This document shows positions 24,834 to 53,032 of a stretch of DNA of 53,032 nt, one piece after another. Source of the stretch: Plantactinospora mayteni (lineage in GTDB: Bacteria > Actinomycetota > Actinomycetes > Mycobacteriales > Micromonosporaceae). A program made the position numbers and the translations under genes. Where the stretch lies: positions 1 through 53,032 of the forward strand of contig NZ_BONX01000072.1 in NCBI RefSeq assembly GCF_016862935.1. Reading direction: 5' to 3'. The first letter of the stretch is position 1. Each line of letters begins with the position of its first letter. A model generated the notes under the pieces. It saw only the letters and a program-made list of their open reading frames with translations. It had not been told where the DNA came from and did no database searches.

Positions 24834-24836
24834 CGC

Positions 24837-29853: not shown

Positions 29854-31632
29854 GTGCAGATCCGGCGGGTGACCGCGCGAAACTTTCGGGGTATCCGCCA
29901 AACCGAGTGGCGGCTGCCCTGCCAGCGCTTTCTCTGTCTGGTGGGAGCCGGGGACAGCACCAAGACCACGCTGCTAGACGCGATTGCATTGGTGCTGACT
30001 TCTCGTCCGAACGTCACCTTCAGCGACGCCGACTTCTACAACTGCGATGTGAGTCAGCCGATCGTGCTGCGCGTGCTCATCGGTGACCTCACAACCGCAT
30101 TGCTCGACGCTGAGGCGGGCTTCGGCATGTGGTTGACCGGGCTGACCCCAAGCGGCGAGCTCGAACATGACCCCGCACCTGCCTCCGAGGAGTGCGTCAT
30201 GCTCCAGCTCACCGTCGACGCCGACCTCGAGCCGTCGTGGACGGTGGTTCGGCACGGCGCGTATGACGACGGGATGCCGTTGACCAGCGGGCGGCGACGC
30301 GCGCTCGGCCTGTTCCGAGTTGACGAGCGGGTCGACACCCACCTTCGGTGGGGGCGCGGCTCAGCACTGGCGAGGCTCACGGATGGCGGCGCAGACGCTG
30401 CCGTTACTGCCGTACGTCGCACATCACGTGAAACCGTATTCAACAACGTAGGTGCGGATCTGCAGGCCACCGCCAGCCAGGTCGCGACTGCTGCCGGGAC
30501 CATTGGCGGTGGGAAGTTTACGGACTTGAGGCCGGGTTGGGATCCGGTCGCCTCCGCGTCGCCGTCGGCTCTCCTACTCCACGAGGGCACGGTTCCACTG
30601 ACCCACGCCGGGCTGGGTAGCAGGCGGCTGATCAGCATCGCCGCCCAGGAACTGGCGACCCAAGACGGCAACATCTTGCTGGTAGATGAGATCGAACACG
30701 GGCTTGAACCTCACCGGCTGCTCCATGTGCTACATGAGCTGCGCAAACGCTCAGACCAGCGGTGCGGCCAGGTCATCGTCACCACGCATTCGCCGATCGC
30801 CGTGCAGGCCATGGTAGCGACGGATATCAGCGTCGTACGCAACGACAGGGACAGCGGCGTCACCGAGGTTACGCCGGTACCGGAAGAGATCAATGAGGCG
30901 CAGGGCGCCTTACGGGCGGGCCCGTCGGCAATCCTCGCCCGCAAGGTCGTCGTCGGGGAAGGCGCCACCGAGGCCGGAATCCTCCGAGCCTTGATCCGCC
31001 GCTGGGACGACGAGCGCATCATGGGCAACGTGCCCACTCACGCGGCGCTAGGCGTGGCGTTCCTTAACGGAGGCGGCGCCAACGCTGCCATCCGAGCCAA
31101 GGTCTACCACGAACTCGGCGTAACGGCGGCGCTGCTAGTCGACAACGACGATCGCGGCGTCGACAAGAACATCGACGCCGCCGAAGGCGCCGGCGTATCC
31201 ATCGCCCGCTGGCAACACGGCAACTCGACCGAGGCAGAGATCATCTCCGTCTTGGCCGAGGTTGCAGAGCTGCGCGAGATCGTAGAGTTGGCCGCCAACC
31301 ACAAGAGCAGCGAGGCAGTGTGCAGTCACCTATGCACTGAACTGCCAAAGCTCTCAGCGCAGGAAGATCCTTGCAGTCCCGATGCGTGGACGGCCGCGGG
31401 CTGCACACTTGACGAGGTTCGAGCAGCGATCATCGCCGCTGCTGGCGGTGGCTCCAAGAGGAAGAACAGCGACAAGGCTTGGTTCAAGCGCGAGGACGCT
31501 GGCGAAACCCTCGGCGAGTTCATCTACCGGCACTGGAACCACTACCGAAGCACCCATCTCGGGGCCGAGCTGATCAAAGTCCGGCAGTTCATCTATGGCG
31601 ACAAGGAGCCCACCGATACCCCCAAGCCCTAG
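29854..31632 (+). CDS. gajA: Gabija GajA: OLD-family ATPase with TOPRIM nuclease
   Basis: This is a 592-residue protein. The N-terminal ABC-type ATPase has RNFRGIRQ, Walker A GAGDSTKTT (31-39), Walker B ILLVDEIEHGLEP (about 273-285) and the switch TTHSPIAV. The C-terminal TOPRIM domain has VVVGEGATEAGIL (Glu about 369) and ALLVDNDDRG (DxD about 431-433). In Gabija, GajA nicks or cuts DNA when nucleotide levels fall and assembles with GajB. The GTG start has no Shine-Dalgarno sequence but has a -10-like TAGACT just upstream. The last 38 bases overlap the gajB start. An OLD nuclease outside Gabija is the alternative, but the adjacent UvrD-like helicase argues for Gabija. Confidence 0.9.
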   Translation: MQIRRVTARNFRGIRQTEWRLPCQRFLCLVGAGDSTKTTLLDAIALVLTSRPNVTFSDADFYNCDVSQPIVLRVLIGDLTTALLDAEAGFGMWLTGLTPSGELEHDPAPASEECVMLQLTVDADLEPSWTVVRHGAYDDGMPLTSGRRRALGLFRVDERVDTHLRWGRGSALARLTDGGADAAVTAVRRTSRETVFNNVGADLQATASQVATAAGTIGGGKFTDLRPGWDPVASASPSALLLHEGTVPLTHAGLGSRRLISIAAQELATQDGNILLVDEIEHGLEPHRLLHVLHELRKRSDQRCGQVIVTTHSPIAVQAMVATDISVVRNDRDSGVTEVTPVPEEINEAQGALRAGPSAILARKVVVGEGATEAGILRALIRRWDDERIMGNVPTHAALGVAFLNGGGANAAIRAKVYHELGVTAALLVDNDDRGVDKNIDAAEGAGVSIARWQHGNSTEAEIISVLAEVAELREIVELAANHKSSEAVCSHLCTELPKLSAQEDPCSPDAWTAAGCTLDEVRAAIIAAAGGGSKRKNSDKAWFKREDAGETLGEFIYRHWNHYRSTHLGAELIKVRQFIYGDKEPTDTPKP

Positions 31633-33136
31633 CGCCCACGCCGATGCGCTGCTCGTCCGCAAGGCGATGCCCTGCTCCGTGACAATGCCCGCCGGCACGG
31701 GCAAGACCGAGATCATCGCAGCAATGACGCATCTCGCCGCCGACGCGCACGAGCGAGCGTTGATCCTTACTCACACCCATGCGGGCATGGACGCCCTTCG
31801 TCGACGGATCAAAGCGATGGGTGTTCAATCCCGCACAGTCCGCATCGACACGATTGCGAGCTGGTCGCATCGGCTGGTTCGCCAATATCCATACCTGGCG
31901 GGTGTCACGGTTCCAGCCGAGCCGGACTGGGCGGCGTCGGCCCTCTACTACGAGGGCGCTACCCACGTAGTCCAAGCCCCCAGCTTGCAAAAGGTTCTCG
32001 CCGCGACGTACGCGTTCGCGATCGTCGACGAGTACCAGGACTGCACAATGCGACAGCATGCCCTCACCACGGCGGTCGCCGCTGCAGTGCCCGTGGCGGT
32101 GTTTGGCGATCCTCTTCAGGCGATCTTCGGTTGGGACCATGACGACCCACTTCCGTCATGGCGCGACGAGATTCAATCTCTCTGGCCTGACTTGCGGATC
32201 GAGGCTTATCCCTGGCGCTGGCAGGGCCACAACCGACAGCTCGGGCAGTGGCTTCTCACCGTCCGCGATGACTTCAGCCAGCAGCGTCCGCTCCGCATCG
32301 GCGACGAGACGCCGGTACGGTGGGTCCAGTCGGAGCAGTACCGCGCGATGGTCCGGGCCTGCCGCGACTTGCGTGCCCAATTCCCGAACGACTCGATCGT
32401 CGCAATCGGAATTCGCGACCACGACTGCCACGGCGTTGCTCGCACTCTCAACGGCTCCTACAGCGTTATGGAGACCATCGAGGGACAAGACATGGTCAAC
32501 TTTGCTCGAATCGTGGATGAGGGTGATGCACCCCGTATCGCCGCCGCGACGGCCAAGTGGGGCAAGACCTGCACCAGCGGCATCTCGAAACTGATCAACA
32601 GCGACGACGTTCGGAAGCTAGAAAGTGGTAGGCCGATCACGGGGCTGCGCCGACCTGGAGCAGAGCGTGCCCAGAAGCACCTATCCGCACTTCTTACCGA
32701 CCCCTCACCGGCTGCCGTCCGCGAGGCGCTAGATACCATCGGCCGGCTCCCCGGCGGTGCCACTTACCGGCACGATGCCTGGTACACAGTGCTGAGTGCC
32801 TTGCGCACAGCAGAGGTCAATGGCCAGTCCGTCGCCGACGCTGCGATCCAGCATCGCAACCGCACTCGCGCGACGGGCCGAAGGGCCAGCCACCACACGA
32901 TCTCCCGACCCACGCTGATCAAGGGGCTGGAGTACGACCACGCGATCATCCTCGATGCCGACCAGCATGACCCCACGAGCCTCTACGTGGCACTAACTCG
33001 CGCACGCAAGACACTCACAGTCATCAGTGCACAGCCCGAGCTGCGTACCCGCCCACGTCAACCGGTCGGCGGCGGCTCCGGTCGAACTCCCGGGCGCCGT
33101 CGAGGTTCCGCTGTGCAGCAACCCATGCTGCTTTGA
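31595..33136 (+). CDS. gajB: Gabija GajB: UvrD-like helicase
   Basis: This 513-residue SF1 helicase has Walker A VTMPAGTGKTEII (about 29-41), Walker B AFAIVDEYQDC (about 138-148, the DExxD form typical of UvrD), VFGDPLQAIFGW, and late motifs IKGLEYDHAIILDAD and LYVALTRARKTL. These are the motifs of GajB, which senses DNA ends and activates GajA. It overlaps gajA by 38 bases, an unusually long overlap, and has no obvious Shine-Dalgarno sequence, so translation is probably coupled. The final 30 residues are Arg/Gly/Pro-rich and probably disordered. Confidence 0.9.
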   Translation: MATRSPPIPPSPSAHADALLVRKAMPCSVTMPAGTGKTEIIAAMTHLAADAHERALILTHTHAGMDALRRRIKAMGVQSRTVRIDTIASWSHRLVRQYPYLAGVTVPAEPDWAASALYYEGATHVVQAPSLQKVLAATYAFAIVDEYQDCTMRQHALTTAVAAAVPVAVFGDPLQAIFGWDHDDPLPSWRDEIQSLWPDLRIEAYPWRWQGHNRQLGQWLLTVRDDFSQQRPLRIGDETPVRWVQSEQYRAMVRACRDLRAQFPNDSIVAIGIRDHDCHGVARTLNGSYSVMETIEGQDMVNFARIVDEGDAPRIAAATAKWGKTCTSGISKLINSDDVRKLESGRPITGLRRPGAERAQKHLSALLTDPSPAAVREALDTIGRLPGGATYRHDAWYTVLSALRTAEVNGQSVADAAIQHRNRTRATGRRASHHTISRPTLIKGLEYDHAIILDADQHDPTSLYVALTRARKTLTVISAQPELRTRPRQPVGGGSGRTPGRRRGSAVQQPMLL

Positions 33137-37416: not shown

Positions 37417-37811
37417 GCTTTCCCTCACCATTCGAGAGGCAATGTCACTCTGAGTAATCCTAACATGACCGATGATTGGGGGTCAAACACATTGGCGGCG
37501 ACGTGGTCGTGACAGGTTTTCCATTGCCAGCCAAACCGATCCGCACACCCAGAGTATCTACCGCAGGCCCATTGACCACCCTGGGCTGCCACGATGGCAA
37601 TGGGGCTCCGGCCTCGACGGTTACTCCGCGTGCAAGGCCAACTGGCCGGCGGCCGGAGCCTGGGCACGGGAAGCCGAGCAGCGCGGCTCCGAGGTCGGGA
37701 TGTTGACCGGAGCACCCCATCGCGATGGGTGGACATCTATGCTCACGTATGTCGTTGGGCCTCGCAGGGCAGGCGCGTCGACTCGACTGGCGTGAGGGAA
37801 AACGGGAAGCC
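37417..37811. other. Divergent intergenic region of the receptor/effector pair
   Basis: These 395 bases lie between the divergent short-partner gene and the small helical effector-like gene. No convincing gene was seen. It should contain promoters for both directions, so receptor and effector could be co-regulated from here. Confidence 0.5.
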
Positions 37812-38234
37812 ATGGTCGCGGACGAGGATATTTTGACCGCAGTTGCGCTCACCTTGGCGGCCAAGGCCGTCGAAGGGCTGACCGAGGGCGGCAAGGCGGC
37901 GTTCGCCGCGCTCGCACGGCTGGTCAAGCGCCGATTCCAGGGACACGGATCGTCGCAGGCGGCGCTCGCCGAAGCCGAGGCTGACCCGGCGGACGACACC
38001 CGCATCCAGTCCCTTCGGGAAGAACTCGCACAGGCAACGGCCGAAGACCCGACGTTCGGTCATGAGCTCCAACGTCTCTGGCGAGACCTCGTCCCTCACC
38101 TGGTAGCTGGCACCGACGGTATCGTCAACCACTTCTCCGGCTCGGTCGGAGGCAATGTAGTGCAGGCTCGCGACGTACATGGCGGCATCTCGTTCGGCGA
38201 TGCCAGCCCACGCAACCCCGAGGCGAGGCACTGA
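37812..38234 (+). CDS. Small Bell-like effector with C-terminal amyloid-type motif
   Basis: This 140-residue protein starts at ATG 37812 with GGGAAG close upstream. Residues 1-100 are predicted all-helical, beginning with the amphipathic Ala-rich helix DILTAVALTLAAKAVEGL and a basic helix (ALARLVKRRF). This fits the Bell domains of bacterial amyloid-signalling effectors, thought to damage membranes like HeLo/4HB domains. Residues 113-128 read GGNVVQARDVHGGISF, matching the N-terminal motif of the NB-ARC receptor at 34095-36512. The ten shared core residues are identical although six of the ten codons differ, all at synonymous positions, so the protein motif is selected. Family naming is by pattern, not search. 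Confidence 0.7.
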   Translation: MVADEDILTAVALTLAAKAVEGLTEGGKAAFAALARLVKRRFQGHGSSQAALAEAEADPADDTRIQSLREELAQATAEDPTFGHELQRLWRDLVPHLVAGTDGIVNHFSGSVGGNVVQARDVHGGISFGDASPRNPEARH

Positions 38235-38592: not shown

Positions 38593-41500
38593 TTGGACGC
38601 GTTCGAGGTGCATCGGCGGCTGATCGACGACTATCGCACCTTCACCGAGGGTTTCGTGGATGTCCACGACGAGCGGATCCGCGCCCGGGTTGAGGCGGAG
38701 AGCGCTCGGGGCGCGCAGTGGCCAGCGCCGTGGTCGTCGTTGAACCCGTCGTTCGAGCCTGGTGGCCGGGTCGATGACCTGGTTCGTGAGGGCTTGCTAC
38801 AACAGGAGTGCGCGCGGATCTTCCGGGTGAAGAAGGCTCCGGATGATGCCGGCACGACGCCGATCACCCTGCACCGGCACCAGAGCGAGGCGGTGCGGGT
38901 TGCCCGTACCGGAGCGTCGTACGTGCTGACCACGGGAACGGGCTCCGGTAAGTCGCTGGCCTACATGGTGCCGATCGTGGACCGGGTGCTGCGGGAGGGG
39001 CCCGGACAGGGCGTCCGGGCGATCGTCGTGTACCCGATGAACGCGTTGGCGAACAGCCAGCAGGAGGAGATGCGTAAGTTCCTGGAGTTCGGCTACAACG
39101 GTCAACCTCCGGTGACGTTCGCCCGGTACACGGGTCAGGAGAGCGAGGAGGAGCGGCGGGCGATCCTGAAGCATCCGCCGGACATCCTGCTGACGAACTA
39201 CGTGATGCTGGAGCTGGTGCTGACCCGCCCGGATGAGCGGCGTCCGTTGGTGGAGGCGGCGCACGGGCTGCGGTTCCTGGTGCTGGACGAACTGCACACC
39301 TACCGGGGCAGGCAGGGCGCGGATGTGGCGATGCTGGTGCGCCGGGTCCGGGACGCGTGCGGCGCCGGGGAGACGTTGCAGTGCGTCGGGACGTCGGCGA
39401 CGATGGCCAACGCGGGCACCGTGGCCCAGCAGCAGGTCGAGGTCGCCGATGTCGCATCGCGGATCTTCGGCGTGGACGTGACGCCGGAGCACGTCATCAC
39501 CGAGACCCTGGTGCGCGCGACGACTGCTCGGAACGTCGAGCCGGCACGGTTGGCGGCGGTTGTCGCCGCGCGCGGTGACGCCGAAGCGGACGACCCGGCG
39601 CTGCGTGCGGGCTACGCGCAGCTCAGCGCGGATCCGCTGGCGTCGTGGATCGAGGACACGTTCGGGGTTGTGGCGGAGCCTGATAGTGGCCGGCTGGTAC
39701 GGCAGCAGCCGACGAAGGTCAATGACGCGGCGGTGACACTGGCCGCAGTGACGGGGCGCTCGGCGGACGAATGCGCGACGGCTATCCGGGCGACTCTGTT
39801 GGCGGGTTCCCGTGCCCGTGACGAGGAGACCGGGCGGCCGTTGTTCGCGTTTCGGCTGCATCAGTTCTTGTCCAAGGGCGGCACGGTCTACAGCACCTTG
39901 GAGCCCGTGGCGTCTCGGGCAATCGAGACGACGTTCCAGGTGGTGCTGCCTGGTCAGCCGGAGCGGCGGCTGTACCCGTTGGCGTTCTGCCGGGAGTGCG
40001 GCCAGGAGTATCTGATCGCCCGTCGGGAAAATCATGTGCAGACGGCGGTCTTCCGGGCGCGTCACGGGCTGCGGATCACCGACAGCGATGACGGTTACCT
40101 GTTCGTCTCGGCGGACCGGGAGTGGCCGGCTGATCCGGTTGCCGAGGGCCGCCTGCCCGGCTCGTGGTTGTCGGCCGATGGCGCGGGTTCCCAGGTGGTG
40201 CCGGCGAGACGCCGCGATGTCCCGATCCGCTATCGCGCGGAGCCGGACGGCACCGCCACCATGGTAGGCACGGCGGGTGAGCCGGTCGAGGGTGGCGTGG
40301 TCGCGGCGTGGATGCCGGGGACGTTCCGGTTCTGCCTGCGATGTGGTGTGTCCTATGAGCAGGTCCGCAGCAACGAGTTCAGCAAGCTGGTCACCCTTGA
40401 TCGGGAGGGCCGAAGCAGCGCCATGACCGTGGTGGCGTCCAGCATTGTGCGGGCGTTGCGGAGCCAGCCGGAGGTGGCGCTGGGCGCGGATGCCCGCAAG
40501 CTGCTGACGTTCGTCGACAACCGGCAGGATGCCAGCTTGCAGGCGGGGCACTTCAACGACTTCGCGTTGGTGGTGCAGCTGCGGGCAGCGCTGTACCGGG
40601 CCACCGTGGACGCGCAGGCGGACGGCGACGACGGGTTGGATCCCCTCGACATCGGCCAGGCGGTAAGCCGCCGGCTCGGTCTGCAGCCCCGCGACTTCGC
40701 GCAGGCGCCGAAGGCACTGGACCTGCGAGCGGCGGAGCGTGCGCTGCGCGGTGTGGTCGAGTTCCGGGTGCTACGGGACCTGCAACGCGGCTGGCGAGTC
40801 ACGCTGCCCAACCTCGAACAGTCCGGGCTGATGGTGGTCGACTACCCACTTCTGGTGACGCTGTCCCAGCGCGATGAGGAGTGGAACGGTACCCACAAGC
40901 TGCTGGTCGATGCTGAGCCGGGCCAGCGGTATGAGATCACTCGCGTGCTGCTGGACGAGATGCGGCGCGTCCTGGCGGTCGACGCGGAGGCGTTGACCCC
41001 GGAGTTCGTGGACCGGCTGCGCAGGCTGAGCCGGGAGCACCTGACCGGGCTGTGGACTGTTCCGGAGACCGAGCCGGATCCGGTGATCGGGTTGGCCATC
41101 GCGGGTCGTGGTGGCCAGTACCGGCCTCGGCACGCGCTCTATCTGTCCGGGCTGGGCAGCTACGGGCGGTGGCTGCGGCACCGGGACCGGTTTGGGCGGC
41201 CGTTGTCGCCGGCCGAGGCGGACGACGTCATCGGCGCCCTGGTGAAACTGCTGGAAACCCACGGTGTACTGGCGAAGGTGGTGGAGAAAGGCGAAACGGG
41301 CTACCGGGTGAAGTCGTCGGCGATGTCGCTACGGGCTGGCGACGGTACGGCGGGCGCACCGGATCCGGTACGTCGCCGGTTCGAAGCCGATCAGCGTCCA
41401 CGGGTGGTGCCGTTCTTCCGCGACCTGTACTTGGACGTCGGGTCGCAGCTGGCGGGGCTACGGGCCGCCGAGCACACCGCACAGGTGCGCGCGGAGGAGC

Positions 41501-43761
41501 GGGAGGAGCGCGAGCAGGCGTTCCGGGAGGGAACCCAGCTGCCGCTGCTGTTCTGCTCGCCCACCATGGAGTTGGGAGTGGATATCTCCTCGCTGAACGC
41601 GGTGGGGATGCGTAACGTGCCGCCGACCCCGGCGAACTACGCGCAACGCAGCGGACGTGCGGGCCGCTCGGGGCAGCCGGCGTTGGTCGTGACCTACTGC
41701 GCCAGCGGCAACAGCCATGACTCGTACTACTTCGAGCGGTCGCAGCTGATGGTGTCCGGCCAGGTGCAGGCGCCCCGGCTCGACCTGGCCAACGAGGACC
41801 TGGTTCGCTCGCACATCCATGCGGTATGGCTGGCGGAGACGGGTGTCCGGTTGGAGCGCTCGATGGCCGACGTGCTGGCGTTGAACCTGCCCGGCCAGCC
41901 GGTGCAGCCAGAGCTGGCCGAAAAGCTTCGGCGGCCCGAGGCAGCCGCCGCGGCGACCCAGGCGGCGCAGGCCCTACTTCGGCCACTGCATCCGGTGCTG
42001 GAAGGCTCGGCCTGGTGGACGCCGCAATGGGTGACCGGCGTGGTGGACGCGGCATTCGAGACCTTTGACCTAGCCTGTGGCCGCTGGCGGGACCTCTACA
42101 CCACCGCCGACGCAGAACGGCAGGCGGCGGCGGACCTGGCGGCCGACGCGACGGTCGGGCGGCAGAATCGTGAGGACGCCGACCAGCGGTACCGTGAGGC
42201 GAGGCAGCGCATTGAGTTGCTGCTCAACCAGTCCGACGACGCCGGACAGAGCGACTTCTACACCTACCGATACTTGGCATCGGAGGGCTTCCTGCCGGGC
42301 TACTCCTTCCCCCGGCTGCCGCTGGCCGCGTACGTGCCGGGCAGCAGGGGGAGGGGTAACACCTGGTTGCAACGGCCGCGGTTCCTGGCGATCTCCGAGT
42401 TCGGACCGGGTGCGCTCATCTATCACGAGGGCGCCCGATACCAGGTGAGCCGAATCAGTCTGCCGCGCGGCAGCGACGAGCAGGTCAGCGGTGAGGTGGT
42501 CCGCACCTCGGCGCGGGTGTGTGAGGCGTGCGGGTACCACCATCCCCGCCAGGTTGGTGTCGATGTCTGTGAGAACTGTGGGCAGCGGCTCGACACCACC
42601 TGGAAGAACCTGTTGCAGATGCAGACGGTGATCACCAGGCGGCGGGAGCGGATCAGCGCCGACGAGGAGGAGCGCAACCGGATCGGTTTCGAGTTGCGCA
42701 CCACGTACCGGTTCGTGTTTCGCGGTGGGCGGCCGGGCCGGTTCGTCGCCGAGGTGCTCGCCGCCGATGGGGTGCCGCTGGCCGGGATGGCGTACGGCGA
42801 CGCCGCCGAGATCCGCGTAACGAACCTCGGCCGCCGTACACGCAAGAACAAGGACACGCACGGCTTCTGGCTCGACCTGGTGAAGGGCCGCTGGCTGTCG
42901 GAGAAAGAAGGCAAGGAAGGCGCCGGCACCGACGATGGGGCAGACGAGGATCTTGAGGCCAAGTTCGAGGACGTGAACCGCAAGGACCTGGTCACACCGT
43001 ATGTGGAGGACCGCCGCAATATCCTGGTCCTACGCTGGCCCGAGCCAGTCAGCGTCGAGGAGGCGACCACGCTCCAGTACGCCATTGAGCGGGGCATCGA
43101 GGCCGTGTTCCAGCTGGAGGACTCCGAACTGTCCAGCGAGCTGCTTCCTGACGGCGACGACCGCGGCCGGGTGCTGCTGGTGGAGGCGGCCGAGGGCGGG
43201 GCGGGTGTGCTGCGCCGGTTGCAGTCTGAGCATGACGCGCTGGCGAGGGTCGCCGCCGAGGCGCTACGGATCATCCACATCGATCCGGACAGCGGCGAGG
43301 AGGATGACACCGCCTGCGTGCGCGGCTGCTACCGATGCCTGCTGTCTTACGGCAACCAGCTCGTGCACGAGCTGATCGACCGTCGGCTGGTCGCGCCGAC
43401 CCTTCAGGAACTCGCCACGGCAACAACCCACCCCGTGAACGACCCGGCACCGCAGGTCGCCCACGACGAACACCCTCTCGAAGCGTCCGGCCCCACCGCC
43501 ACCCTGCTGCGGCTGCTACGCGAGCACGGCCACCGGCTGCCCAGCCGAATCGGCGTTGAGGTCGAGGGCATCCGCATCGACTTGGTCTACGACAATGCCG
43601 ATGTGCCCACCGTCGTCCTCATCGACGACGACGGCGGCCATAAGCAGGACACCACACCACTCATCTTCGGAGGCTGGAACGTGATTCAGATCGGCGCCAC
43701 CGAGGACATACTCACCGCAGTAGCCGCACACCCCGGCGTCTTCGGCGAGGCGACCCGATGA
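38593..43761 (+). CDS. Giant DEAD-box helicase with DUF1998/MZB and nuclease-like tail
   Basis: This is a 1722-residue protein with a TTG start behind GGAAGGTGAG. The SF2 helicase core has TTGTGSGKS (113-121), DELH (about 232) and SGRAGRSGQ (about 1020). Several zinc knuckles are present (FCRECG about 465, FCLRCG about 579, CEACG...CENCG about 1310), and an MZB/DUF1998 signature ACVRGCYRCLLSYGNQ lies at about 1575. The tail (1645-1705: GIRIDLVYDNADVPTVVLID, then GGH and GGWNVIQIG) resembles a Vsr/DUF559 nuclease fold. Similar domains make up DISARM DrmA plus DrmB, whose combined length is comparable, and Druantia DruE. It is the first gene of a four-gene, ATGA-coupled operon with SNF2, methylase and McrB-like genes, so it is probably the translocating core of a restriction-like defence. 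Confidence 0.85.
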   Translation: MDAFEVHRRLIDDYRTFTEGFVDVHDERIRARVEAESARGAQWPAPWSSLNPSFEPGGRVDDLVREGLLQQECARIFRVKKAPDDAGTTPITLHRHQSEAVRVARTGASYVLTTGTGSGKSLAYMVPIVDRVLREGPGQGVRAIVVYPMNALANSQQEEMRKFLEFGYNGQPPVTFARYTGQESEEERRAILKHPPDILLTNYVMLELVLTRPDERRPLVEAAHGLRFLVLDELHTYRGRQGADVAMLVRRVRDACGAGETLQCVGTSATMANAGTVAQQQVEVADVASRIFGVDVTPEHVITETLVRATTARNVEPARLAAVVAARGDAEADDPALRAGYAQLSADPLASWIEDTFGVVAEPDSGRLVRQQPTKVNDAAVTLAAVTGRSADECATAIRATLLAGSRARDEETGRPLFAFRLHQFLSKGGTVYSTLEPVASRAIETTFQVVLPGQPERRLYPLAFCRECGQEYLIARRENHVQTAVFRARHGLRITDSDDGYLFVSADREWPADPVAEGRLPGSWLSADGAGSQVVPARRRDVPIRYRAEPDGTATMVGTAGEPVEGGVVAAWMPGTFRFCLRCGVSYEQVRSNEFSKLVTLDREGRSSAMTVVASSIVRALRSQPEVALGADARKLLTFVDNRQDASLQAGHFNDFALVVQLRAALYRATVDAQADGDDGLDPLDIGQAVSRRLGLQPRDFAQAPKALDLRAAERALRGVVEFRVLRDLQRGWRVTLPNLEQSGLMVVDYPLLVTLSQRDEEWNGTHKLLVDAEPGQRYEITRVLLDEMRRVLAVDAEALTPEFVDRLRRLSREHLTGLWTVPETEPDPVIGLAIAGRGGQYRPRHALYLSGLGSYGRWLRHRDRFGRPLSPAEADDVIGALVKLLETHGVLAKVVEKGETGYRVKSSAMSLRAGDGTAGAPDPVRRRFEADQRPRVVPFFRDLYLDVGSQLAGLRAAEHTAQVRAEEREEREQAFREGTQLPLLFCSPTMELGVDISSLNAVGMRNVPPTPANYAQRSGRAGRSGQPALVVTYCASGNSHDSYYFERSQLMVSGQVQAPRLDLANEDLVRSHIHAVWLAETGVRLERSMADVLALNLPGQPVQPELAEKLRRPEAAAAATQAAQALLRPLHPVLEGSAWWTPQWVTGVVDAAFETFDLACGRWRDLYTTADAERQAAADLAADATVGRQNREDADQRYREARQRIELLLNQSDDAGQSDFYTYRYLASEGFLPGYSFPRLPLAAYVPGSRGRGNTWLQRPRFLAISEFGPGALIYHEGARYQVSRISLPRGSDEQVSGEVVRTSARVCEACGYHHPRQVGVDVCENCGQRLDTTWKNLLQMQTVITRRRERISADEEERNRIGFELRTTYRFVFRGGRPGRFVAEVLAADGVPLAGMAYGDAAEIRVTNLGRRTRKNKDTHGFWLDLVKGRWLSEKEGKEGAGTDDGADEDLEAKFEDVNRKDLVTPYVEDRRNILVLRWPEPVSVEEATTLQYAIERGIEAVFQLEDSELSSELLPDGDDRGRVLLVEAAEGGAGVLRRLQSEHDALARVAAEALRIIHIDPDSGEEDDTACVRGCYRCLLSYGNQLVHELIDRRLVAPTLQELATATTHPVNDPAPQVAHDEHPLEASGPTATLLRLLREHGHRLPSRIGVEVEGIRIDLVYDNADVPTVVLIDDDGGHKQDTTPLIFGGWNVIQIGATEDILTAVAAHPGVFGEATR

Positions 43762-46649
43762 CCGCCCCGACACAGCAGACCCGACCGGCCTTCCCGGTCG
43801 GGTCCCTTGTCACCGCCCGAGGCCGGGATTGGGTCGTCCTACCCGGCAGCGACACCGACTTCCTGGTGCTGCGACCGCTGGCTGGCGGCGATGACGACGT
43901 GGCCGGGGTGTTCATCGACGAAGGCGTCACCCACGCCACATTCACTACACCCAACCCGGACGACCTCGGCGACGACCGCAGCGCCCGCCTGCTGCGCGAC
44001 GCGCTCCGGATCGGCTTCCGGGCCAGCGGCGGCCCGTTCCGCAGCCTCGCCGGCCTCGCCGTCGACCCACGCCCCTACCAGCTCGTGCCACTGCTGCTCG
44101 CGCTGCGCCAGGAGACCACCCGGCTGCTGATCGCCGACGACGTGGGCATCGGCAAGACCGTCGAGGCCAGCCTGGTCGCCGCCGAACTACTCGCACAAGG
44201 CAGCGCCCGGCGGCTGACCGTGCTGTGCCCGCCCAGCCTCGCCGAACAGTGGCAAACGGAGCTGCAGGCGAAGTTCGGCATCCAAGCCGAACCGGTACTG
44301 CCCGGCACCGTCCGCCGCCTGGAACGTGGCCTGGAGTACGGCCAGTCGATCTTCGAACGGTACCCGTTCACGATCGTGTCGACCGACTACATCAAGTCCG
44401 ACATGCGCCGCGACGACTTCCTGCGGGCCGCACCAGAGCTGGTCATCGTCGACGAGGCGCACGCGTGCGTCAGCGACGAGACCGGTGCCGGCGGGCGAGG
44501 CCGCACCCAGCGTTACCGGCTACTCAAAGACCTCGCCACCGACGCCGAGCGGCATCTGATCCTCGTGACCGCGACGCCGCACAGCGGAAAGGAAGAAACG
44601 TTCCGCAACCTGATCGGTCTGCTCGACCCGAGCCTGCGGGACACGAACCTCGCCGCCGAAGCCGGCCGCCGACGGTTGGCCGCCCACCTGGTGCAGCGCC
44701 GGCGCGCCGACATCCGCGACTACCTCGGCGCCGACACGAAGTTCCCGTCCGACCGGGCCACCGACGAACGGACCTACCAGCTGTCCCCGGCCTACCGGGG
44801 CCTGCTCGATGACGTCCTGGCCTACGTCCAGGGCCAGATCACCGACCGCAGCGGCAGCCGAGTCCAGCAACGCGTCCGGTGGTGGTCGGCGCTGTCGCTG
44901 CTGCGTTCCCTCGCCTCCTCTCCCGCCGCCGCCGCGGCGACCCTCGCCACCCGAGCCGCCTCGGCGGGTGCTGCGTCGGAGCAGGCCGCCGACACCGCCG
45001 GCGCCGCCGGAGTCCTCGACCTCGTTGACGACGACGCCTTGGACACCGCGGACGCCGTGCCCGGAGCGCTGTTCGACGACGAATCCGCAATGAGCGACAG
45101 CGACGCCGCGAGACTGCACGAACTCCGCCGCCGCGCCCTGGCCATCGCCGAGGAACCGGACGCCAAACAGCGCACCGCACACGACACCAAACTGGCCCTG
45201 GTCGCCACCACCGTCCAGCGGCTATTGAAGGACGGCTTCCACCCGATCGTGTTTTGCCGCTTCATCCCGACCGCCCACTACCTCGCCAACCACCTCGCCT
45301 CCGCCTTCCCCAAAGCGGTCGTGGAAGTGGTCACCGGCGAACTACCGCCGGAAGACCGCGCCGCCCGAGTCCGTGACCTCGCCAACCGCGCCGGCGCCAC
45401 CAACAAGATCCTGGTCGCCACCGACTGCCTCTCCGAAGGCGTCAACCTCCAACACGACTTCCAGGCAGTAGTCCATTACGACCTGGCCTGGAACCCGACT
45501 CGACACGAACAGCGCGAAGGCCGCGTCGACCGCTTCGGCCAGCCCCGCGACGTCGTCCGCGCCGTCACCCTCTACGGCTCGGACAACGTCATCGACCGCA
45601 TTGTCATGGACGTCCTAATCCGCAAGCACGAGGCGATCCGCCGCGACCTCGGCATCAGTGTCCCGGTGCCGGACACCAGCGACCAGGTCCTCACCGCCCT
45701 CATGGACGGGGTCATGAAACGGGGCAGCACCTACGTGCAAGAGACCCTCGACATCGGCCTCCCCGCGGAGGCCCAGCAACTGGAATTCGACTGGCAGAGC
45801 ACTGCCGAAGCCGAACGACGCAGCCGAAGCCGCTACGCCCACCACACCATTCGCCCCGAAGAGGTACGCCGCGAGGTTGAAGCCATGCGGTCCGCGCTCG
45901 GCAGCCCCGACAACGTCGCCGGGTTCGTCGCCACCGCCCTGCAGGAGTGCGGCGGCATCCTGACCAACGAACCGTACGGCTTCACCGTCGAAGCCGTCGG
46001 CCTGCCCGTCGGACTCCGCGACGCCCTCGGCAACCCGACCAAACCGCTCGCGTTCCACCGAGACCTGCCCGCGCCACGCGGCGCGGCGGTACTGGCCCGC
46101 ACCGACACCGCCTCAGCCTCGGTCGCCCGCTACGTCCTGGACGCCGCACTCGACTCAGCCCTGCCCACCGCCGCCCGGCCAGCCCGGCGATGCGGGGTCA
46201 TCGTCACCAACGCCGTCACCACAGCGACAGTGCTGCTGCTGACCAGAGTCCGCGCCAACCTCACCCTCCCCGGACGGTACGGCCCCCACGCCCAGGTCGC
46301 TGAAGAAGCCCGACCTCTCGCATTCACCGGCACCCCGGCGAACCCGCACTGGCTGGAAGCCGACGAGGTCGAAGCACTCCTGGCGGCACAACCCGACCGC
46401 AACCTCAGCGCGGACATCGCCCGCAACATCATGAAGGGAGTCCTCGGCGCGATGCCCGCCATCACCAGCCACCTCGACCGCTTCGCCCACGAACTCGCCG
46501 AGTCACTACGCGACGCCCACGTCCGCGTCCGCACCGCTGCGCGAGGCGACCGCGCAGGCGCACTCGGCATCCGCGGGCTGACCGTCGAACCACAGTTACC
46601 TGTCGACGTACTCGGCGTCTACCTCTACCGACCGGCGGCCCACCCATGA
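43758..46649 (+). CDS. SNF2-type helicase (DISARM DrmD-like)
   Basis: This 963-residue protein starts in an ATGA overlap with the upstream helicase. It has LLIADDVGIGKTVEA (Walker A, about 124-138), LVIVDEAHAC (DEAH, about 229-238), LILVTATPHSG, LVATDCLSEGVNLQ and the closing WNPTRHEQREGRVDRFGQP (about 578-596). These are SWI2/SNF2-family motifs of the bacterial DEAH type seen in DrmD of class 1 DISARM and in DpdE-like proteins. The insertion between the lobes (about 385-450) is Ala-rich and low-complexity. The last 300 residues are unassigned. The role would be DNA translocation or remodelling, in a complex with the flanking gene products. Confidence 0.85.
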   Translation: MTAPTQQTRPAFPVGSLVTARGRDWVVLPGSDTDFLVLRPLAGGDDDVAGVFIDEGVTHATFTTPNPDDLGDDRSARLLRDALRIGFRASGGPFRSLAGLAVDPRPYQLVPLLLALRQETTRLLIADDVGIGKTVEASLVAAELLAQGSARRLTVLCPPSLAEQWQTELQAKFGIQAEPVLPGTVRRLERGLEYGQSIFERYPFTIVSTDYIKSDMRRDDFLRAAPELVIVDEAHACVSDETGAGGRGRTQRYRLLKDLATDAERHLILVTATPHSGKEETFRNLIGLLDPSLRDTNLAAEAGRRRLAAHLVQRRRADIRDYLGADTKFPSDRATDERTYQLSPAYRGLLDDVLAYVQGQITDRSGSRVQQRVRWWSALSLLRSLASSPAAAAATLATRAASAGAASEQAADTAGAAGVLDLVDDDALDTADAVPGALFDDESAMSDSDAARLHELRRRALAIAEEPDAKQRTAHDTKLALVATTVQRLLKDGFHPIVFCRFIPTAHYLANHLASAFPKAVVEVVTGELPPEDRAARVRDLANRAGATNKILVATDCLSEGVNLQHDFQAVVHYDLAWNPTRHEQREGRVDRFGQPRDVVRAVTLYGSDNVIDRIVMDVLIRKHEAIRRDLGISVPVPDTSDQVLTALMDGVMKRGSTYVQETLDIGLPAEAQQLEFDWQSTAEAERRSRSRYAHHTIRPEEVRREVEAMRSALGSPDNVAGFVATALQECGGILTNEPYGFTVEAVGLPVGLRDALGNPTKPLAFHRDLPAPRGAAVLARTDTASASVARYVLDAALDSALPTAARPARRCGVIVTNAVTTATVLLLTRVRANLTLPGRYGPHAQVAEEARPLAFTGTPANPHWLEADEVEALLAAQPDRNLSADIARNIMKGVLGAMPAITSHLDRFAHELAESLRDAHVRVRTAARGDRAGALGIRGLTVEPQLPVDVLGVYLYRPAAHP

Positions 46650-49600
46650 GCGGCCCCGGACTCCAAGGCATCCACGCCGTCGGCGGTGTCGTACCACCCG
46701 GCCTGCTTGCCCGCATCCAGGCCGGCGAACTCAAGGACCCCACCGGCCTCGCACCCGCCTCCTATCACCTTGTCGGCCGCGAAACCGTCCGCGACGCCGC
46801 CAGCCGAGCCTGGTCCTACCTGCGCAGCGCGTGGACCGCCTGGCGCGAGCACACCGCCACCCAACCACCCGGCACCCATGGCATCGCCGCAGCCCGGGAA
46901 CGGTGGCTGCTGGTCCTGCTCCGCGAACTCGGCTACGGACAGGTCCCCGCACTACCCGCCGGCTACACCATCGACGACCGGCGCTACCCCGTCTCCCACG
47001 CCTGGCAACACGTACCGATCCACCTCCTCGGCCCCGGCGTCGACCTCAACCACCGCAACCCCGACGTCCCCGGCGCCGCCCGCGCCCCCCAGGCCATGCT
47101 GCAAGAGCTACTCAACCGCAGTGACGCCCACCTGTGGGGCATCCTGTCCAACGGGCTACGCCTACGGCTGCTCCGCGACTCCACCGCCCTCGCCGGCTCC
47201 GCTTACCTCGAATTCGACCTCGAAACGATCTTCGACGGCGAGCTCTACCCCGAGTTCCTCCTCATGTGGCAGCTCTGCCACGTCTCCCGGCTGGAACAAC
47301 GACCCGGCGCCGGCGACCTCGATGTTGCCACCCCTACCGGCTGCTGGCTGGAGACCTGGCGCGGCGAAGCCGCCGAAGCCGGAACCCGAATGCTCGACCG
47401 GCTCCGCGACGGTGTCGCCGACGCCATCGCCGCGCTCGGCACCGGATTCATCCGGCACCCCACGAACCGGCCCCTCGTCGAGGCCTTACGTGACGGCACC
47501 CTCAGCACCACCCAATACCACCGCGCACTGCTGCGGCTGGTCTACCGACTGCTGTTCTGCTTCGTCGCCGAAGACCGCGACGCGCTGCTCCACCCAAGCG
47601 CCACCACCCAGGCACGGGACCGATACAGCCGATACTTCTCCACCGCACGCCTGCGCAGGCTGTCCCGCAGCCGCGCCGGCAGCCCACACCCAGACCTCTG
47701 GCAAGCACAGACGATCGTCCTACGCGCCCTCGGCGGCCACGGACATCCCGGCCTCGGACTACCACCACTGGCCGGACTCTTCGACCCCGACCCGCACCTA
47801 CCGACCATCGACCGGCTCCCCGCAGACCCGCTACTCGGCTGCGAACTGACCAACGAAGACCTACTCACCGCCATCCGCAAACTCGCCTGGGTAGCTCTGC
47901 CAGGGCAACGAGTGCAGCCCGTCGACTACCGCAACCTCGGCGCCGAAGAACTCGGCAGCGTCTACGAGTCGCTCCTCGAGCTCGTACCCCGCGTCGACTT
48001 GGACGATCGCACCTTCCGGCTCGTCACCGTCTCCGGCAACGACCGCAAAACCACCGGTTCCTACTACACCCCACCCAGCCTGGTCTCTGCGCTCCTCGAT
48101 ACCGCGCTCGATCCGCTGCTCGACGAAGCCATCGCCGGCGCGTCCAGCCCCGCTGACGCCGAAACCCGCCTGCTTGCCCTGACCGTCTGTGACCCCGCCT
48201 GCGGCTCGGGCCACTTCCTCGTCGCCGCCGCCCGCCGCATCGCACGCCGGCTGGCGCAAGTCCGCTCCGGCGACGACGAACCCACCCCCACGCAGATCCA
48301 ACACGCCCTGCGCGACGTCGTCGGACACTGCATCTACGGCGTAGACCTCAACGACCTCGCCGCCGAACTGGCCAAAGTGTCGCTCTGGATGGAAGCCCTG
48401 GAACCGGGCAAGCCCCTCGGCTTCCTCGACGCCCGCATCCGCATCGGCAACTCCCTACTCGGAGTAACCCCCACCCTGCTGCACGGCGACCTGCCCGACG
48501 CCGCTTTCAAAGAACTCGAAGGCGACGACAAAAAGAGCGCCGCCACCGCCCGCAGGAACAACAAGGCACAGGCCACGGTCGAGGTTGCGATCCAATCCGC
48601 CACCAAGCGCGGATACGCCCAGGATGCGCTCATTTTCGCCACCGGCCCGAACGTCTCGAACGCCGCGCTCGCCGCCCAGCGCACGGCGCTGCTCAGCCTC
48701 CCCGACGACGTCGACGCGATCCGCGCTCAAGCAGACCGATGGGAAAAGCACGAGCAGTCGCCCGAATACCGCGCGCAACGCCTCCGAGCCGATACCTGGT
48801 GCGCTGCGTTCGTATGGCCCATGCCTCCAGCAGGAACGAATTCGGCACCCGAGCCACCAACTAACGCAATCATGCGAGCCATCACTGACAGCCCACTGAG
48901 CATGACACACGCTCACCTGACCGAGTACGCGGAGAAAATCGCAGCCCAATACAGATTCTTCCACTGGCACCTGGAGTTCCCCGAGATCTTCCATGTCGAT
49001 GAGGCGACGGTCGACGCGACGCCGCAGGGCTGGAGCGGCGGTTTCTCATGCATCCTCGGAAACCCGCCATGGGAGCGAGTCAAGCTTCAGGAGAAAGAGT
49101 TCTTCGCCGCACGCCATCCCGAGATCACGAAAGCCGCTACGGCGGCTGCGAGGAAGAAGCTCATAGCGGCTCTCAAGAACTCCGAAAGCACCGCCGACCG
49201 CGCCCTGCACAGAGAGTGGACAGCAGCCTTACGGATGTCCGACGGCGTCAGCGCGCTGATTCGGGAGTCGGGCCGCTATCCACTGACCGCCACCGGCGAC
49301 ATCAACACCTATGCGATCTTCGCGGAGGCCGCTCGCTCTATCATGAGCCCAACCGGACGGCTCGGCATCATCGTCCCGACCGGCATCGCCACCGACTCGA
49401 CCACGCAGCGGTTCTTCCGCGATCTAGTCGAACGGCAGCACCTGGTCACACTCCACGATTTCGAGAATGAAGACAAAGTCTTCCCGAGTGTTCACCATTC
49501 GTACAGGTTTGCATTGCTCGCGCTATCCGGGCGGCCATCTAAGCAGGTTTTATTGGCGTTCCGCGTGCGCCAAGCCGCACAGATCACCGAGCGAGCCTAC

Positions 49601-50779
49601 GCAATCACGCCAGACGAGATCTTGCTATTGAACCCCAATACCGGTACGTGCCCCGTGTTCGTTTCCCGGCGCGATGCTGAGACCACCATCGGTATCTACC
49701 GCCGAATTCCGGTGCTATGGCGAGACGGTGGGGCAGAAGGAAATCCGTGGGAATTGTCATTCATGGCGATGCTCCACATGGCCAATGACTCAGGACACTT
49801 CATAACCGCAGACAAGGCGGATGCAGACGGCTGGTCTCGGCAAGGGAACCGCTACCACCGCAGTCAAGAGCAACTGCTGCCGCTGTACGAGGCAAAAATG
49901 GCACATCACTACGACCACCGCTTCTCCACATACGAAGGGGCCACGCAGGCGCAGCTCAACGTCGGCACGCTGCCTCGGCTCGATGACGTAGCGCATGGCG
50001 ATCCGGCGCTCGGCGCACTACCACGTTACTGGGTGTCCGAGAGTCTCGTCGACGACAAGTTGGCAGGCGACCCAGATCGAGGCAAGCCAGACTGGCCATA
50101 TAGCTGGCTTCTTGGTTGGAGAGACATCGCGCGCAGTGTTGATGAGCGGACGCTGATTTCTTCCATCATCCCTCGGGCCGCTGTGGGGCACACAAATCCA
50201 CTGGCTCTCCCAGCACAAGCCCCATCTCTCGTTGCTTGCCTGGCGGCCAATCTATCTGCCTTTTGCATCGACTACGTCACTCGGCAGAATTTGTCCGGCG
50301 CCCACGTTACGTACACCGTGATGAAGCAGCTTCCGGTTCTGCCACCCGAGGTCTACGGCCGGGAGGTGCCCTGGGATGCAACCGGTCGCAACCTGGATGA
50401 GTGGGTCATGGTACGGGTGCTGGAACTGAGCTACACGGCGTACGACCTGGAGGGATTCGCCCGCGACCTGGAAGATCAAGGCCCCCCGTTCGTTTGGGAT
50501 AGTGGCCGACGAGCGTTGTTGCGCGCCGAACTAGACTCCGCGTATTTCCACCTCTATGGCGTGGCCCGTGTGGACGTGGACTACATCATGGACACTTTCA
50601 AGGTAGTCCGTGAGCGTGACGAGAAAACCTATGGCGAGTACCGCACCAAGCGGATGATCCTGGAGATCTACGACGCGATGCAGCACGCGATCGACAGCGG
50701 CAAGCCGTACACCACAATCGTGGATCCGCCACCCGGTCAGGGTGCGCGTCACCCGGCACGGGATGAGGTGCTTGCATGA
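46646..50779 (+). CDS. Large N6-adenine DNA methyltransferase (DrmMI/Eco57I-like)
   Basis: This 1377-residue protein starts in an ATGA overlap with the SNF2 gene. The N-terminal 460 residues are a helical region seen in type IIG/PglX/DrmMI-like enzymes. The catalytic part has [16 protein letters not shown] (about 470), motif [17 protein letters not shown] (about 513-528) and motif [12 protein letters not shown] (NPPW about 806-809), so it methylates adenine N6. C-terminal parts ([33 protein letters not shown]) form the target-recognition region. No nuclease domain was recognised, so it probably marks self DNA while other subunits restrict. From about 48.8 kb to 50.3 kb codon use is less GC-biased, suggesting that the specificity region was exchanged. 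Confidence 0.88.
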
Positions 50780-53032
50780 GTGACAGCCAGGTACTCATCC
50801 CGTCGCGTAATGACGAGTTGGTCCGGCAGGTCGGTCGGGAGCTCATCGAGCAGGGCCTTCAACATGGTCGGTCGCTGTTCACGCCTGAGCGGTCGGTGTG
50901 GAACCCTGACACGGCAGGCGAGCTGCACCGCCGCTACAACGAGCAGCCGGACCTTGGCGGGGACCCGTTCCTGGTCAAGCTACGTCGTCAGCTTGGCTCC
51001 GCCTCCGATGATGCCATCCAGCTCGCGGCGGAGTTGTTGACGCTGCAAGGGCTTCCTCTGATCAACCTGACGACCGCAACGCTTCATACTCGTGTCACCA
51101 CTGTGTTGAGCTGGATGCGCGAGCCGGTTACCGTTCCCGACCGTGTCCTCGCTGCGTTTACTCAGGGAACGTGGAACGGCGGGACCGGCGCGCACACGAT
51201 GTTGTGGAAATGGCTGGTGGACGCGGTCGAGTTTGTCTGCGGCTGGTGGTCGCTGCCGCAGGATCAGCGGGAGCAGGCGTTCACCGGCCCGTGGGCGTGG
51301 CAGGACGCCGTCTACCAGTACAAGCTCATGCCGTCGCTGCGCGAAGAGCTGCTGTACCTGGGATTCCCTTCATACTTCCTGCCGATCCTCAACATGGCGC
51401 ACAAGAAGGCGATCCGCGACGCGTTCGCCGATCCATCCATGGAGTCGACCGGTGATCTCAACCGGGATCTCTTCGCCACCACGGTCAGGATTCAGGGGCA
51501 GGTCGGGCAGCCGGTCGACTTCTACCAGCAGCCGTTCGTGGCGCAGTGGCGTAAGCAGGCCGAGAGGCCGCCAGGCGAGCGTCGGGCCTGGCTGATCCGA
51601 CCCCGGCAAGGCGGCCATGACTTGGTGGCGCGCTGGAGGGCGGAGTCGTTTGTCTCGCTCGCTGCTTCCCACCTGGGCGAGGTCTCCCCAGGCGCGTCCA
51701 GGGCTGAGGTCCGCGCCGCCGTCGAGGCAGGCTACCAGCATCTGGACTACGCCCAGCGGGTGAGCCTGGCCAACGAGTACCACGCGTTCCTGTCACAGAT
51801 GGACAGCGACGACATCGTCGTGACGCTGGTCGACGACCAGTTGTATGTCGGTGTTCTCGATGGCGATCCGGAGTACAGTCCGACCGATGGCGGCGCGCGC
51901 CTGCGTCGGGCCGCTGGGTGGCTGACGAGCGCCCCGATCGCGGTGGACGTGCTGCCGGCGCCGTTGCCGGCCGAGCTGGATCAGCAGGGCACGGTGGTCG
52001 ACCTGACCGGCGCGTTGGACGTGTTGGCCGCCCTCGTCGAGGTGGACACGGAGACCCCGGAGGCGCCGAGCCCGCCGGACCGAGTCCAGGCGACCGTGCG
52101 CGTTGTCCCGAAGCTGCCGGCGGTGACGGATGCCCTGGCCACGCGGCTGTACATCAACCGACAATGGTTGCAGGACCTCCTGGAGTTATGGCAGGAACGT
52201 TTACAGATCGTCCTCTACGGGCCACCGGGCACCGGCAAGACCTACCTCGCGCGGGCGCTCGCGGCGCACGTCGCCGAGCGCGACGCGGTCCGCTTGGTGC
52301 AGTTCCACCCGTCGTACGCCTACGAGGACTTCTTCGAGGGGTTCCGCCCCATCGAAGGCGCCGACGGCGGACCGGTGAGCTTCGCCAAGGCACCCGGTCC
52401 ACTGCGGGAGATCGCCGCCGAGGCCAGGAACAATCCTGAGAAGCCGTACGTCCTAATCGTTGACGAGATCAACCGGGCGAACCTGGCGAAGGTCTTCGGC
52501 GAGCTGTACTTCCTGCTGGAGTACCGCGAGGCCACCATTCGCCTGCAATACTCGCCGTCCGAGGCGTTCAACCTGCCGCCCAACGTCTTCATCATCGGCA
52601 CGATGAACACCGCCGACCGCTCGATCGCGTTGGTGGACGCTGCGATCCGGCGCCGGTTCGCGTTCATCGAGCTGCATCCCGACGATCCGCCTGTGCGTGA
52701 TGTGCTCGGCAACTGGTTGACGGCGAACGACAAGGACGGTGACGAGCGGGCCGCGTTGCTCGCTGCGCTCAACGAGTCGATCGGTGAGGAGGACCACGAC
52801 TTCAAGATCGGCCCGTCATACCTCATGAAGCCGAACCTCGACAGCGAGGCCGCACTCGACCGGGTATGGCGGTACGACCTGATGCCGTTGCTGGAGGAGC
52901 ACTACTACGGCCGGCTCACCCGGACCCAGATCCGCAACCGATTCGGACTCGCGGCCATCCGCGCCCGGATTACCCAGGCGGCTAGGGCCTGTGTCGAAGT
53001 CGGTTATAGCCACTCGTTGATGGCGGCGAGGT
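50776..53032 (+). CDS. McrB-like AAA+ NTPase (cut by window end)
   Basis: The ATG overlaps the methylase stop (ATGA). The 752 residues present consist of a unique N-terminal region of about 460 residues (with YLGFPSYFLPILNMAHKKAI) and a McrB-type AAA+ domain: Walker A GPPGTGKTYLARALA (482 onward), VLIVDEINRANLAKVFGEL (about 560-578) and GTMNTADRSIALVDAAIRRR (about 608-627). The last two are the McrB hallmarks. McrB hydrolyses GTP and drives the McrC nuclease, which binds modified DNA; an McrC-like gene is expected just beyond the window. Combined with a methylase and two helicases in one operon, this is not a standard McrBC. The reading frame is open at the window edge. Confidence 0.88.
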   Translation, partial: MSDSQVLIPSRNDELVRQVGRELIEQGLQHGRSLFTPERSVWNPDTAGELHRRYNEQPDLGGDPFLVKLRRQLGSASDDAIQLAAELLTLQGLPLINLTTATLHTRVTTVLSWMREPVTVPDRVLAAFTQGTWNGGTGAHTMLWKWLVDAVEFVCGWWSLPQDQREQAFTGPWAWQDAVYQYKLMPSLREELLYLGFPSYFLPILNMAHKKAIRDAFADPSMESTGDLNRDLFATTVRIQGQVGQPVDFYQQPFVAQWRKQAERPPGERRAWLIRPRQGGHDLVARWRAESFVSLAASHLGEVSPGASRAEVRAAVEAGYQHLDYAQRVSLANEYHAFLSQMDSDDIVVTLVDDQLYVGVLDGDPEYSPTDGGARLRRAAGWLTSAPIAVDVLPAPLPAELDQQGTVVDLTGALDVLAALVEVDTETPEAPSPPDRVQATVRVVPKLPAVTDALATRLYINRQWLQDLLELWQERLQIVLYGPPGTGKTYLARALAAHVAERDAVRLVQFHPSYAYEDFFEGFRPIEGADGGPVSFAKAPGPLREIAAEARNNPEKPYVLIVDEINRANLAKVFGELYFLLEYREATIRLQYSPSEAFNLPPNVFIIGTMNTADRSIALVDAAIRRRFAFIELHPDDPPVRDVLGNWLTANDKDGDERAALLAALNESIGEEDHDFKIGPSYLMKPNLDSEAALDRVWRYDLMPLLEEHYYGRLTRTQIRNRFGLAAIRARITQAARACVEVGYSHSLMAAR

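Follow-up and report, generated by a model that had tools for sequence, protein, structure and literature searches.

ARMADA is a newly described defence system. According to the parts of its description drawn on here (PMC12458937; Bell et al. 2025, bioRxiv), Type I consists of a YprA/DUF1998 helicase, a BrxHII/RapA-like ATPase and a PglX-like methylase encoded in this order, is abundant in Actinomycetota and has a helicase closest to that of Druantia. The same parts predict an active Vsr-type nuclease at the helicase C-terminus of ARMADA Types I and II, with the cutting step predicted rather than experimentally assigned. For Druantia Types I and II, systems tied to McrB-like proteins, they report helicases whose Vsr domains are inactivated. 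An earlier study by the same first author (PMC11090510; Bell et al. 2024, eLife) contains, in the portion used here, a branch of the McrB tree (the green group) in which McrBC is associated with a DISARM-like cassette, and leaves it for later publication. Here, we analysed a window of 53,032 nucleotides from Plantactinospora mayteni, which is the complete contig C72 (NZ_BONX01000072.1) of a 9.84 Mb assembly (genome G000) and ends in an operon of ARMADA Type I genes followed by mcrB. We lean towards reading this locus as an ARMADA Type I anti-phage operon that has been extended by a co-inherited McrBC pair, with DNA cutting done by McrC instead of the helicase's own nuclease.

The operon occupies four open reading frames (ORFs) on the plus strand, of which the last is still open at the window end (53032), and its features are as follows:

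38593..43761, plus strand: gene 1, YprA-family superfamily 2 helicase with a DUF1998/MZB zinc module (ARMADA YprA subunit), 1722 residues (Pfam DEAD, Helicase_C and MZB)
43450..43758, plus strand: C-terminal remnant of an EDxHD/Vsr-type nuclease in gene 1, degenerate, about residues 1620-1722 (alignment of 120 tails)
43758..43761, plus strand: ATGA overlap of genes 1 and 2 (ORF reading)
43758..46649, plus strand: gene 2, SNF2/RapA (BrxHII/DrmD-like) ATPase, 963 residues (Pfam SNF2-rel_dom and Helicase_C)
46646..46649, plus strand: ATGA overlap of genes 2 and 3 (ORF reading)
46646..50779, plus strand: gene 3, PglX/DrmMI-like N6-adenine methylase, 1377 residues (Pfam Eco57I at 9.1e-20 and N6_Mtase; PADLOC DrmMI at 3.3e-65)
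50776..50779, plus strand: ATGA overlap of genes 3 and 4 (ORF reading)
50776..52977, plus strand: gene 4, mcrB (McrB-type AAA+ motor), truncated at the 3' end by an insertion (Pfam AAA_5; match to E. coli McrB)
52982..53032, minus strand: terminus of a repeated insertion element with a DDE_Tnp_4 transposase, within the 3' end of mcrB (copies on contigs C84, C102 and C38)

Gene 1 starts with TTG and genes 2, 3 and 4 with ATG, and at each junction (43758, 46646 and 50776) the downstream ATG begins three bases ahead of the last base of the upstream ORF, giving the four bases ATGA with TGA as the stop. All three overlaps are kept in the relative G007, in which mcrB and mcrC overlap likewise. A preliminary description of the window had already proposed both these overlaps and the identities of the four genes; the ORFs confirm the former, and Pfam and PADLOC bear out the latter.

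Judged by Pfam and PADLOC profile matches, gene order and the published description, genes 1 to 3 fit ARMADA Type I and not DISARM. The best PADLOC model for gene 1 is DruE3 (5.9e-107, against 2e-16 for DrmA), its identity to 11 aligned relatives is 45-62%, and two CxxC pairs (C466/C469 and C581/C584) are invariant across 12 aligned sequences, which would agree with the domain of at least two such pairs at the start of RecA2 in ARMADA Type I. Gene 2 is matched by PADLOC models PDLC02853 (labelled DpdE, 2.4e-293), DrmD (4.4e-83) and BrxHI/HII (9.9e-58), and the NPPW motif of gene 3 (N806 P807 P808 W809) does not vary among 10 aligned sequences, of which the window's is one. The preliminary description had taken the operon for a variant of class 1 DISARM in which an McrB-type motor replaces drmC. 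Its comparison of genes 2 and 3 with DrmD and DrmMI is sound and speaks for such a variant, but helicase and DUF1998 form one chain closest to DruE models, separate drmA and drmB genes are absent, and mcrC follows mcrB, so that we consider a DISARM variant very improbable. The McrB-type motor is real, and drmC is indeed missing from the operon; McrB is, however, no lone stand-in for it, being paired with a nuclease gene, mcrC, that is present on another contig (C6). In the operon, to which this search was confined, none of the five genes is drmC, and the next ORF lies on the opposite strand.

Gene 4 is a true McrB as judged from a sequence match to E. coli McrB (5.6e-46 over residues 452-712), a fold match (6.6e-16) and the residues N611-T-A-D614, which align with the NxxD-type McrB signature. 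Its structure model (mean predicted local distance difference test score, pLDDT, 81) comprises an N-terminal helical part (about 14-262), a middle alpha/beta part (about 270-415) and the AAA+ region (452-712). No Pfam family matches the N-terminal parts above cut-off, and a profile search of the PDB with the middle part gave a single match at E 0.63. These N-terminal parts vary even within the window's own clade, about 260 residues common to the window and G007 being absent in G023. A genome search with the McrC of G007 found one place, G000:C6:43-1239 in the first bases of contig C6, where the gene is 92% identical to that of G007; PF10117 (DUF2357) matches there at 9.5e-55, the place is the sole McrC match in the window's genome, and the D...DAK nuclease motif (PD-(D/E)xK) is present. 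Both partners of McrBC (type IV restriction), an AAA+ McrB motor of the NxxD type and an McrC with DUF2357 and PD-(D/E)xK, are encoded by this genome.

The similarity of gene 4 to its G007 counterpart ends near 52977, and positions 52982-53030 recur on other contigs, of which C84 and C102 start with the repeat within two bases and in C38 it lies where a DDE_Tnp_4 transposase ORF ends. The opening bases of C6, in turn, resemble the mcrB tail of G007. Together, these observations most likely place an insertion element near the 3' end of mcrB, between mcrB and mcrC, and the contig ends at 53032 because of this repeated element; we infer the adjacency of the two genes in the window's genome across it. 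Consequently, we rejected both an mcrB running unbroken beyond the contig end, the last ~17 window codons belonging to the insertion element, and an operon devoid of a nuclease gene, whose apparent absence is an effect of the contig end. Compared with the 751-residue protein of G007, the window's McrB is ~17 C-terminal residues short, and the mcrB-mcrC overlap is broken. The ORF called after mcrC lies on the opposite strand in both C6 and G007, and mcrC is therefore probably the last gene of the operon.

Beyond this added McrBC pair, the window differs from ARMADA Type I as described in the degenerate nuclease of its helicase. Many ARMADA loci share the pattern E...PDF.Y...DG..H...RD in the tail of gene 1, and we take these tails, partly on the basis of the ARMADA paper, to be EDxHD or Vsr-like nucleases. 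The window's tail, aligned with others (120 tails in all), has T in place of E, D in place of G, a gap at H, G in place of R and H in place of the last D. Its tail has no nuclease match in Pfam, and a fold search with its model gave nothing at E 0.001 or better, the best being the I-Bth0305I catalytic domain at E 0.1.

The loss of this motif goes together with the presence of McrBC nearby. Counting a locus as linked if McrBC lies within 30 kb, a limit fixed after the first sample was known, we found McrBC linked in 57 of the 59 loci with a lost motif versus 14 of the 55 with an intact one (114 scored loci from both samples). The first sample comprised 42 lost and linked, two lost and unlinked, 11 intact and linked and 23 intact and unlinked loci, with four unscored. 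The prediction that loss and linkage would coincide was then written down before the 44 stretches of the second sample were retrieved, at a time when McrC status, though not the helicase tails, was known for the phylum part of that sample. This sample gave 15, 0, 3 and 18 loci in the same categories, with two unscored, under a motif that was loosened after its scoring because seven divergent loci scored as lost read CDGSVH (the three residues before [DE]G..H were freed and the spacer widened, which left the calls in the first sample unchanged). A conserved E outside the scoring definition is found in 57 of 57 intact tails (including two unscored for linkage) and in both lost-unlinked ones, compared with 13 of the 57 tails from lost-linked loci. 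Unscored loci are L084, L099, L109, L131, L232 and L251. Dropped before counting were L022, L023, L024 and L052 (contigs shared with L102, L128 and L084) as well as L082, L087, L103, L119, L125, L127, L132 and L133, for which the first scan had no gene 1 match; from the second sample, L229, L238, L239, L249 and L252, which repeat contigs of the first, and L255 (no gene 1 found) were left out, as were the truncated G273 and G275 from the draw across the phylum.

Several results weigh against an effector swap as the meaning of this pattern. Under the original form of the motif, the second sample comprises 15 lost-linked, seven lost-unlinked, three intact-linked and 11 intact-unlinked loci. As many as 14 linked loci retain an intact motif, and the unlinked L021 and L028 have lost it, though both retain the conserved E. 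Two of the unscored loci, L109 (McrC ~258 kb off, with another ARMADA copy of the same genome linked) and L131 (McrC 21 kb upstream on the other strand), are nuclease-lost and would lift the lost-unlinked count from two to four. The evidence for the nuclease fold is itself weak: of two intact tails tried, L061 matches DUF559 barely above the cut-off (21.4 versus 20.6 bits) and L066 stays below it. In addition, each trait changes only ~7 times on a tree of 121 rows, which makes the association of helicase nuclease loss with McrBC linkage suggestive. Among 6-7 independent pairs, a mean of 3.0-3.8 (3.1-3.5 on this tree) differ as predicted and 0-0.2 in the opposite direction while the rest show no difference, and with so few informative pairs the sign test cannot reach 0.05 and is not significant. 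Letting the loss rate vary with linkage improves the fit of a likelihood model (0.97 losses per unit length when linked versus 0.07 when not, ~13-fold; likelihood ratio 8.9 and p 0.003 whichever of two roots is used), a test that can mislead with few events and that was run on a quick tree.

These few independent changes and the non-significant sign test are what one would expect if McrBC merely rode along with ARMADA in defence islands and the nuclease had degenerated for other reasons in a small number of old lineages, the match between the two being shared ancestry. The window is such an island (see below), and in an even draw of 296 genomes across the phylum, the SNF2 gene was found in 18 and McrC in 29 but both in just two, which confines the association to certain lineages. 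We nevertheless judge hitch-hiking unlikely. The second sample repeated the pattern, the likelihood ratio speaks for dependence, and all 15 distant McrBC scored as linked in the first sample lie downstream and in the same orientation (L131, where McrC is upstream on the other strand, being unscored).

Linked ARMADA and McrBC modules also diverge together. The SNF2 tree groups the loci by direct McrBC linkage with nine changes, versus a mean of 22.3 after shuffling. In the McrC tree, from which six short McrC proteins (L166-L171) and two repeats (L049 and L149) were left out, the 39 linked rows and eight rows without linked ARMADA form one clade (support 99/96), and 24 other such rows fall outside; one of the eight, G173, lies ~16 kb from an ARMADA locus. 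Distances in the McrC and SNF2 trees correlate across 38 linked pairs with a Mantel r of 0.80 that was reached in 0 of 2000 permutations. Hosts of one family split alike in both trees (the window, G007 and G023 versus G063; Knoellia versus Kribbia), a pattern that points beyond host descent alone to a joint transfer of ARMADA and McrBC. The nuclease motif of McrC, D...D(A/T)K, is kept in all 38 linked proteins long enough to judge (39 linked in all), and a possible start of mcrC overlapping mcrB by four bases exists in 22 of the 35 linked loci inspected.

This co-divergence makes McrBC more than the occasional neighbour that the window's relatives had suggested. Among 151 genomes (the window's own and relatives), 14 have the methylase and 16 have gene 4, and the five-gene set of genes 1-3, mcrB and mcrC occurs in G007, G023 and G063; the remaining ARMADA loci fetched from this set have no McrBC nearby. 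That count of three in 13 other methylase genomes, in which G031 was left out and G078 is cut at a contig end, had led us to consider McrBC a chance neighbour, an idea that was dropped after a wider scan of loci, a genome search for McrC and the trees. The scan of named genomes covered the best 80 of at least 481 relatives, and its fractions are no population rates: among the 62 loci that have genes 1-3 and extend at least 9 kb further downstream, McrBC adjoins the methylase in 17, lies within 10 kb in 12 and was not seen in 33. McrC was found in 22 of 45 searched genomes whose loci have no McrBC within 10 kb, and in 15 of the 33 loci without a near McrBC, the same contig carries McrC in the same orientation 11-29 kb further downstream. 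Regarding the preliminary description's question whether these genes travel as a set, the answer is mixed: linked modules co-diverge, yet McrBC also stands alone and many ARMADA loci have none nearby.

The distribution also contains points that tell against a single integrated system. Many Streptomyces have McrBC 11-29 kb off and outside the operon, and McrBC pairs related to that of the window occur without ARMADA in G030, G090 and G026 (61-67% identity across the N-terminal 450 residues; the mcrB of G026 has an in-frame stop). Such freestanding McrBC fits the main rival explanation, in which ARMADA and McrBC are two independent layers of defence, one acting on unmarked DNA and the other, as type IV restriction, on phages that evade the first through modified bases. 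BREX is likewise a methylase-bearing defence. A precedent for two layers is its coexistence with the type IV enzyme BrxU on one plasmid island, as told in the part of PMC8565348 (Picton et al. 2021) used here, where the enzyme belongs to the GmrSD family and not, as in the window, to McrBC. ARMADA loci also occur beside GmrSD enzymes (L026, L118 and L052/L084), and the linked loci with an intact helicase nuclease would likewise suit two layers. Yet this arrangement gives no reason why the decay of the helicase nuclease is nearly confined to McrBC-linked loci, and we therefore regard it as possible though rather doubtful.

Under the extended ARMADA operon that we favour, the gene set and its order, the mcrC gene on another contig, the co-divergence of the modules, the decayed helicase motif and the intact McrC motif can be read from the sequences directly, and the mechanism would run as follows. 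The PglX-like methylase would mark the host's DNA, and the helicase and SNF2 ATPase would engage unmarked or replicating invader DNA. Cutting would then fall to McrC, driven by the McrB ring, while elsewhere in ARMADA Type I the built-in nuclease of the helicase would cut. In the window's strain, the insertion shortens mcrB by ~17 codons and parts it from mcrC, and the cutting arm may be weakened as a result. More tentatively, and with somewhat less than even confidence, we suggest that the helicase nuclease has been given up as effector in much of actinobacterial ARMADA Type I and that McrBC has taken this role in a self-marking system, where ARMADA and not modified DNA would trigger it. If true, type IV restriction would be modular, a modification-dependent nuclease having been recruited as the destructive arm of a system that a methylase guards. 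Because some loci keep the built-in nuclease intact while in others it is dead and McrBC is present, the cutting step of ARMADA is open to direct test.

Contrary to the preliminary description, which knew no standard name for the combination, McrBC beside such a cassette has already been published (PMC11090510 and PMC12458937, in the portions drawn on here) and is not new. The green group of PMC11090510, as portrayed there, joins an NxxD-type McrB with YprA, DUF1998, SWI2/SNF2 and PglX genes and very probably represents the same association as in the window. A parallel to the window's pattern is offered by Druantia Types I and II and Type IV CoCoNuT, which we know here from their description in part of PMC12458937: they combine a YprA helicase whose Vsr C-terminal domain is inactivated with a link to an McrB-like protein. 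There, however, the McrB homologue is reportedly inactivated, whereas here the motor motifs of McrB and the nuclease motif of McrC are intact. Nowhere in the consulted sections of PMC12458937 is ARMADA Type I described as having lost its helicase nuclease. The 2026 preprint PMC13192584, which mentions ARMADA, contains no occurrence of McrBC or Vsr, and no further paper joining ARMADA with McrBC was found in the literature searched. As far as this search reaches, the co-divergence of ARMADA with McrBC and the degenerate helicase nuclease in McrBC-linked ARMADA Type I are new. An active C-terminal nuclease would seem typical of ARMADA Type I rather than a trait that names the family, its motif being lost in 59 of 114 scored loci.

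Other defence systems accompany the operon in the window:

21006-26093, minus strand: CBASS-type set (cyclase 24840-26093, E1-E2 fusion 22993-24273, SAVED-PD(D/E)xK effector 21006-22511)
27943-29436, plus strand: large serine recombinase between CBASS and Gabija (Pfam Recombinase, Zn_ribbon_recom and Resolvase)
29854-33136, plus strand: Gabija (GajA 29854-31632 overlapping GajB 31595-33136)

CBASS, Gabija and ARMADA-McrBC together make the window a defence island, which may be mobile now or have been so formerly. An ORF of 169 residues ahead of gene 1 (37725-38234, plus strand) has no Pfam or PADLOC match.

Some ARMADA loci elsewhere carry additional genes. Six Streptomyces genomes (G441, G442, G444, G445, G446 and G447, with loci L088, L089, L097, L098, L100 and L101) and G659 have a second, lower-scoring McrC ~5-11 kb from the ARMADA-linked one, and Glycomyces arizonensis (L022 and L102) has an extra methylase paralogue directly upstream of its ARMADA cassette. 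The GmrSD-type genes lie directly downstream of the cassette at L026:12624-15149 in G012 (by Pfam), ~7 kb downstream in L118 and just upstream in L052/L084 (the latter loci by similarity to L026).

In a comparison with Dpd, the DpdE label of gene 2 rests mainly on PDLC02853, a model that covers the ARMADA SNF2 ATPase almost end to end and whose label may misguide automated annotation. About 13 kb beyond mcrC on contig C6, on the other strand, lie genes for a 6-pyruvoyl-tetrahydropterin synthase-like protein and a radical SAM protein (L054:13787-15270, minus strand) with kinase, epimerase and TPR genes nearby, a region that may be a 7-deazaguanine-type or a specialised-metabolite cluster.

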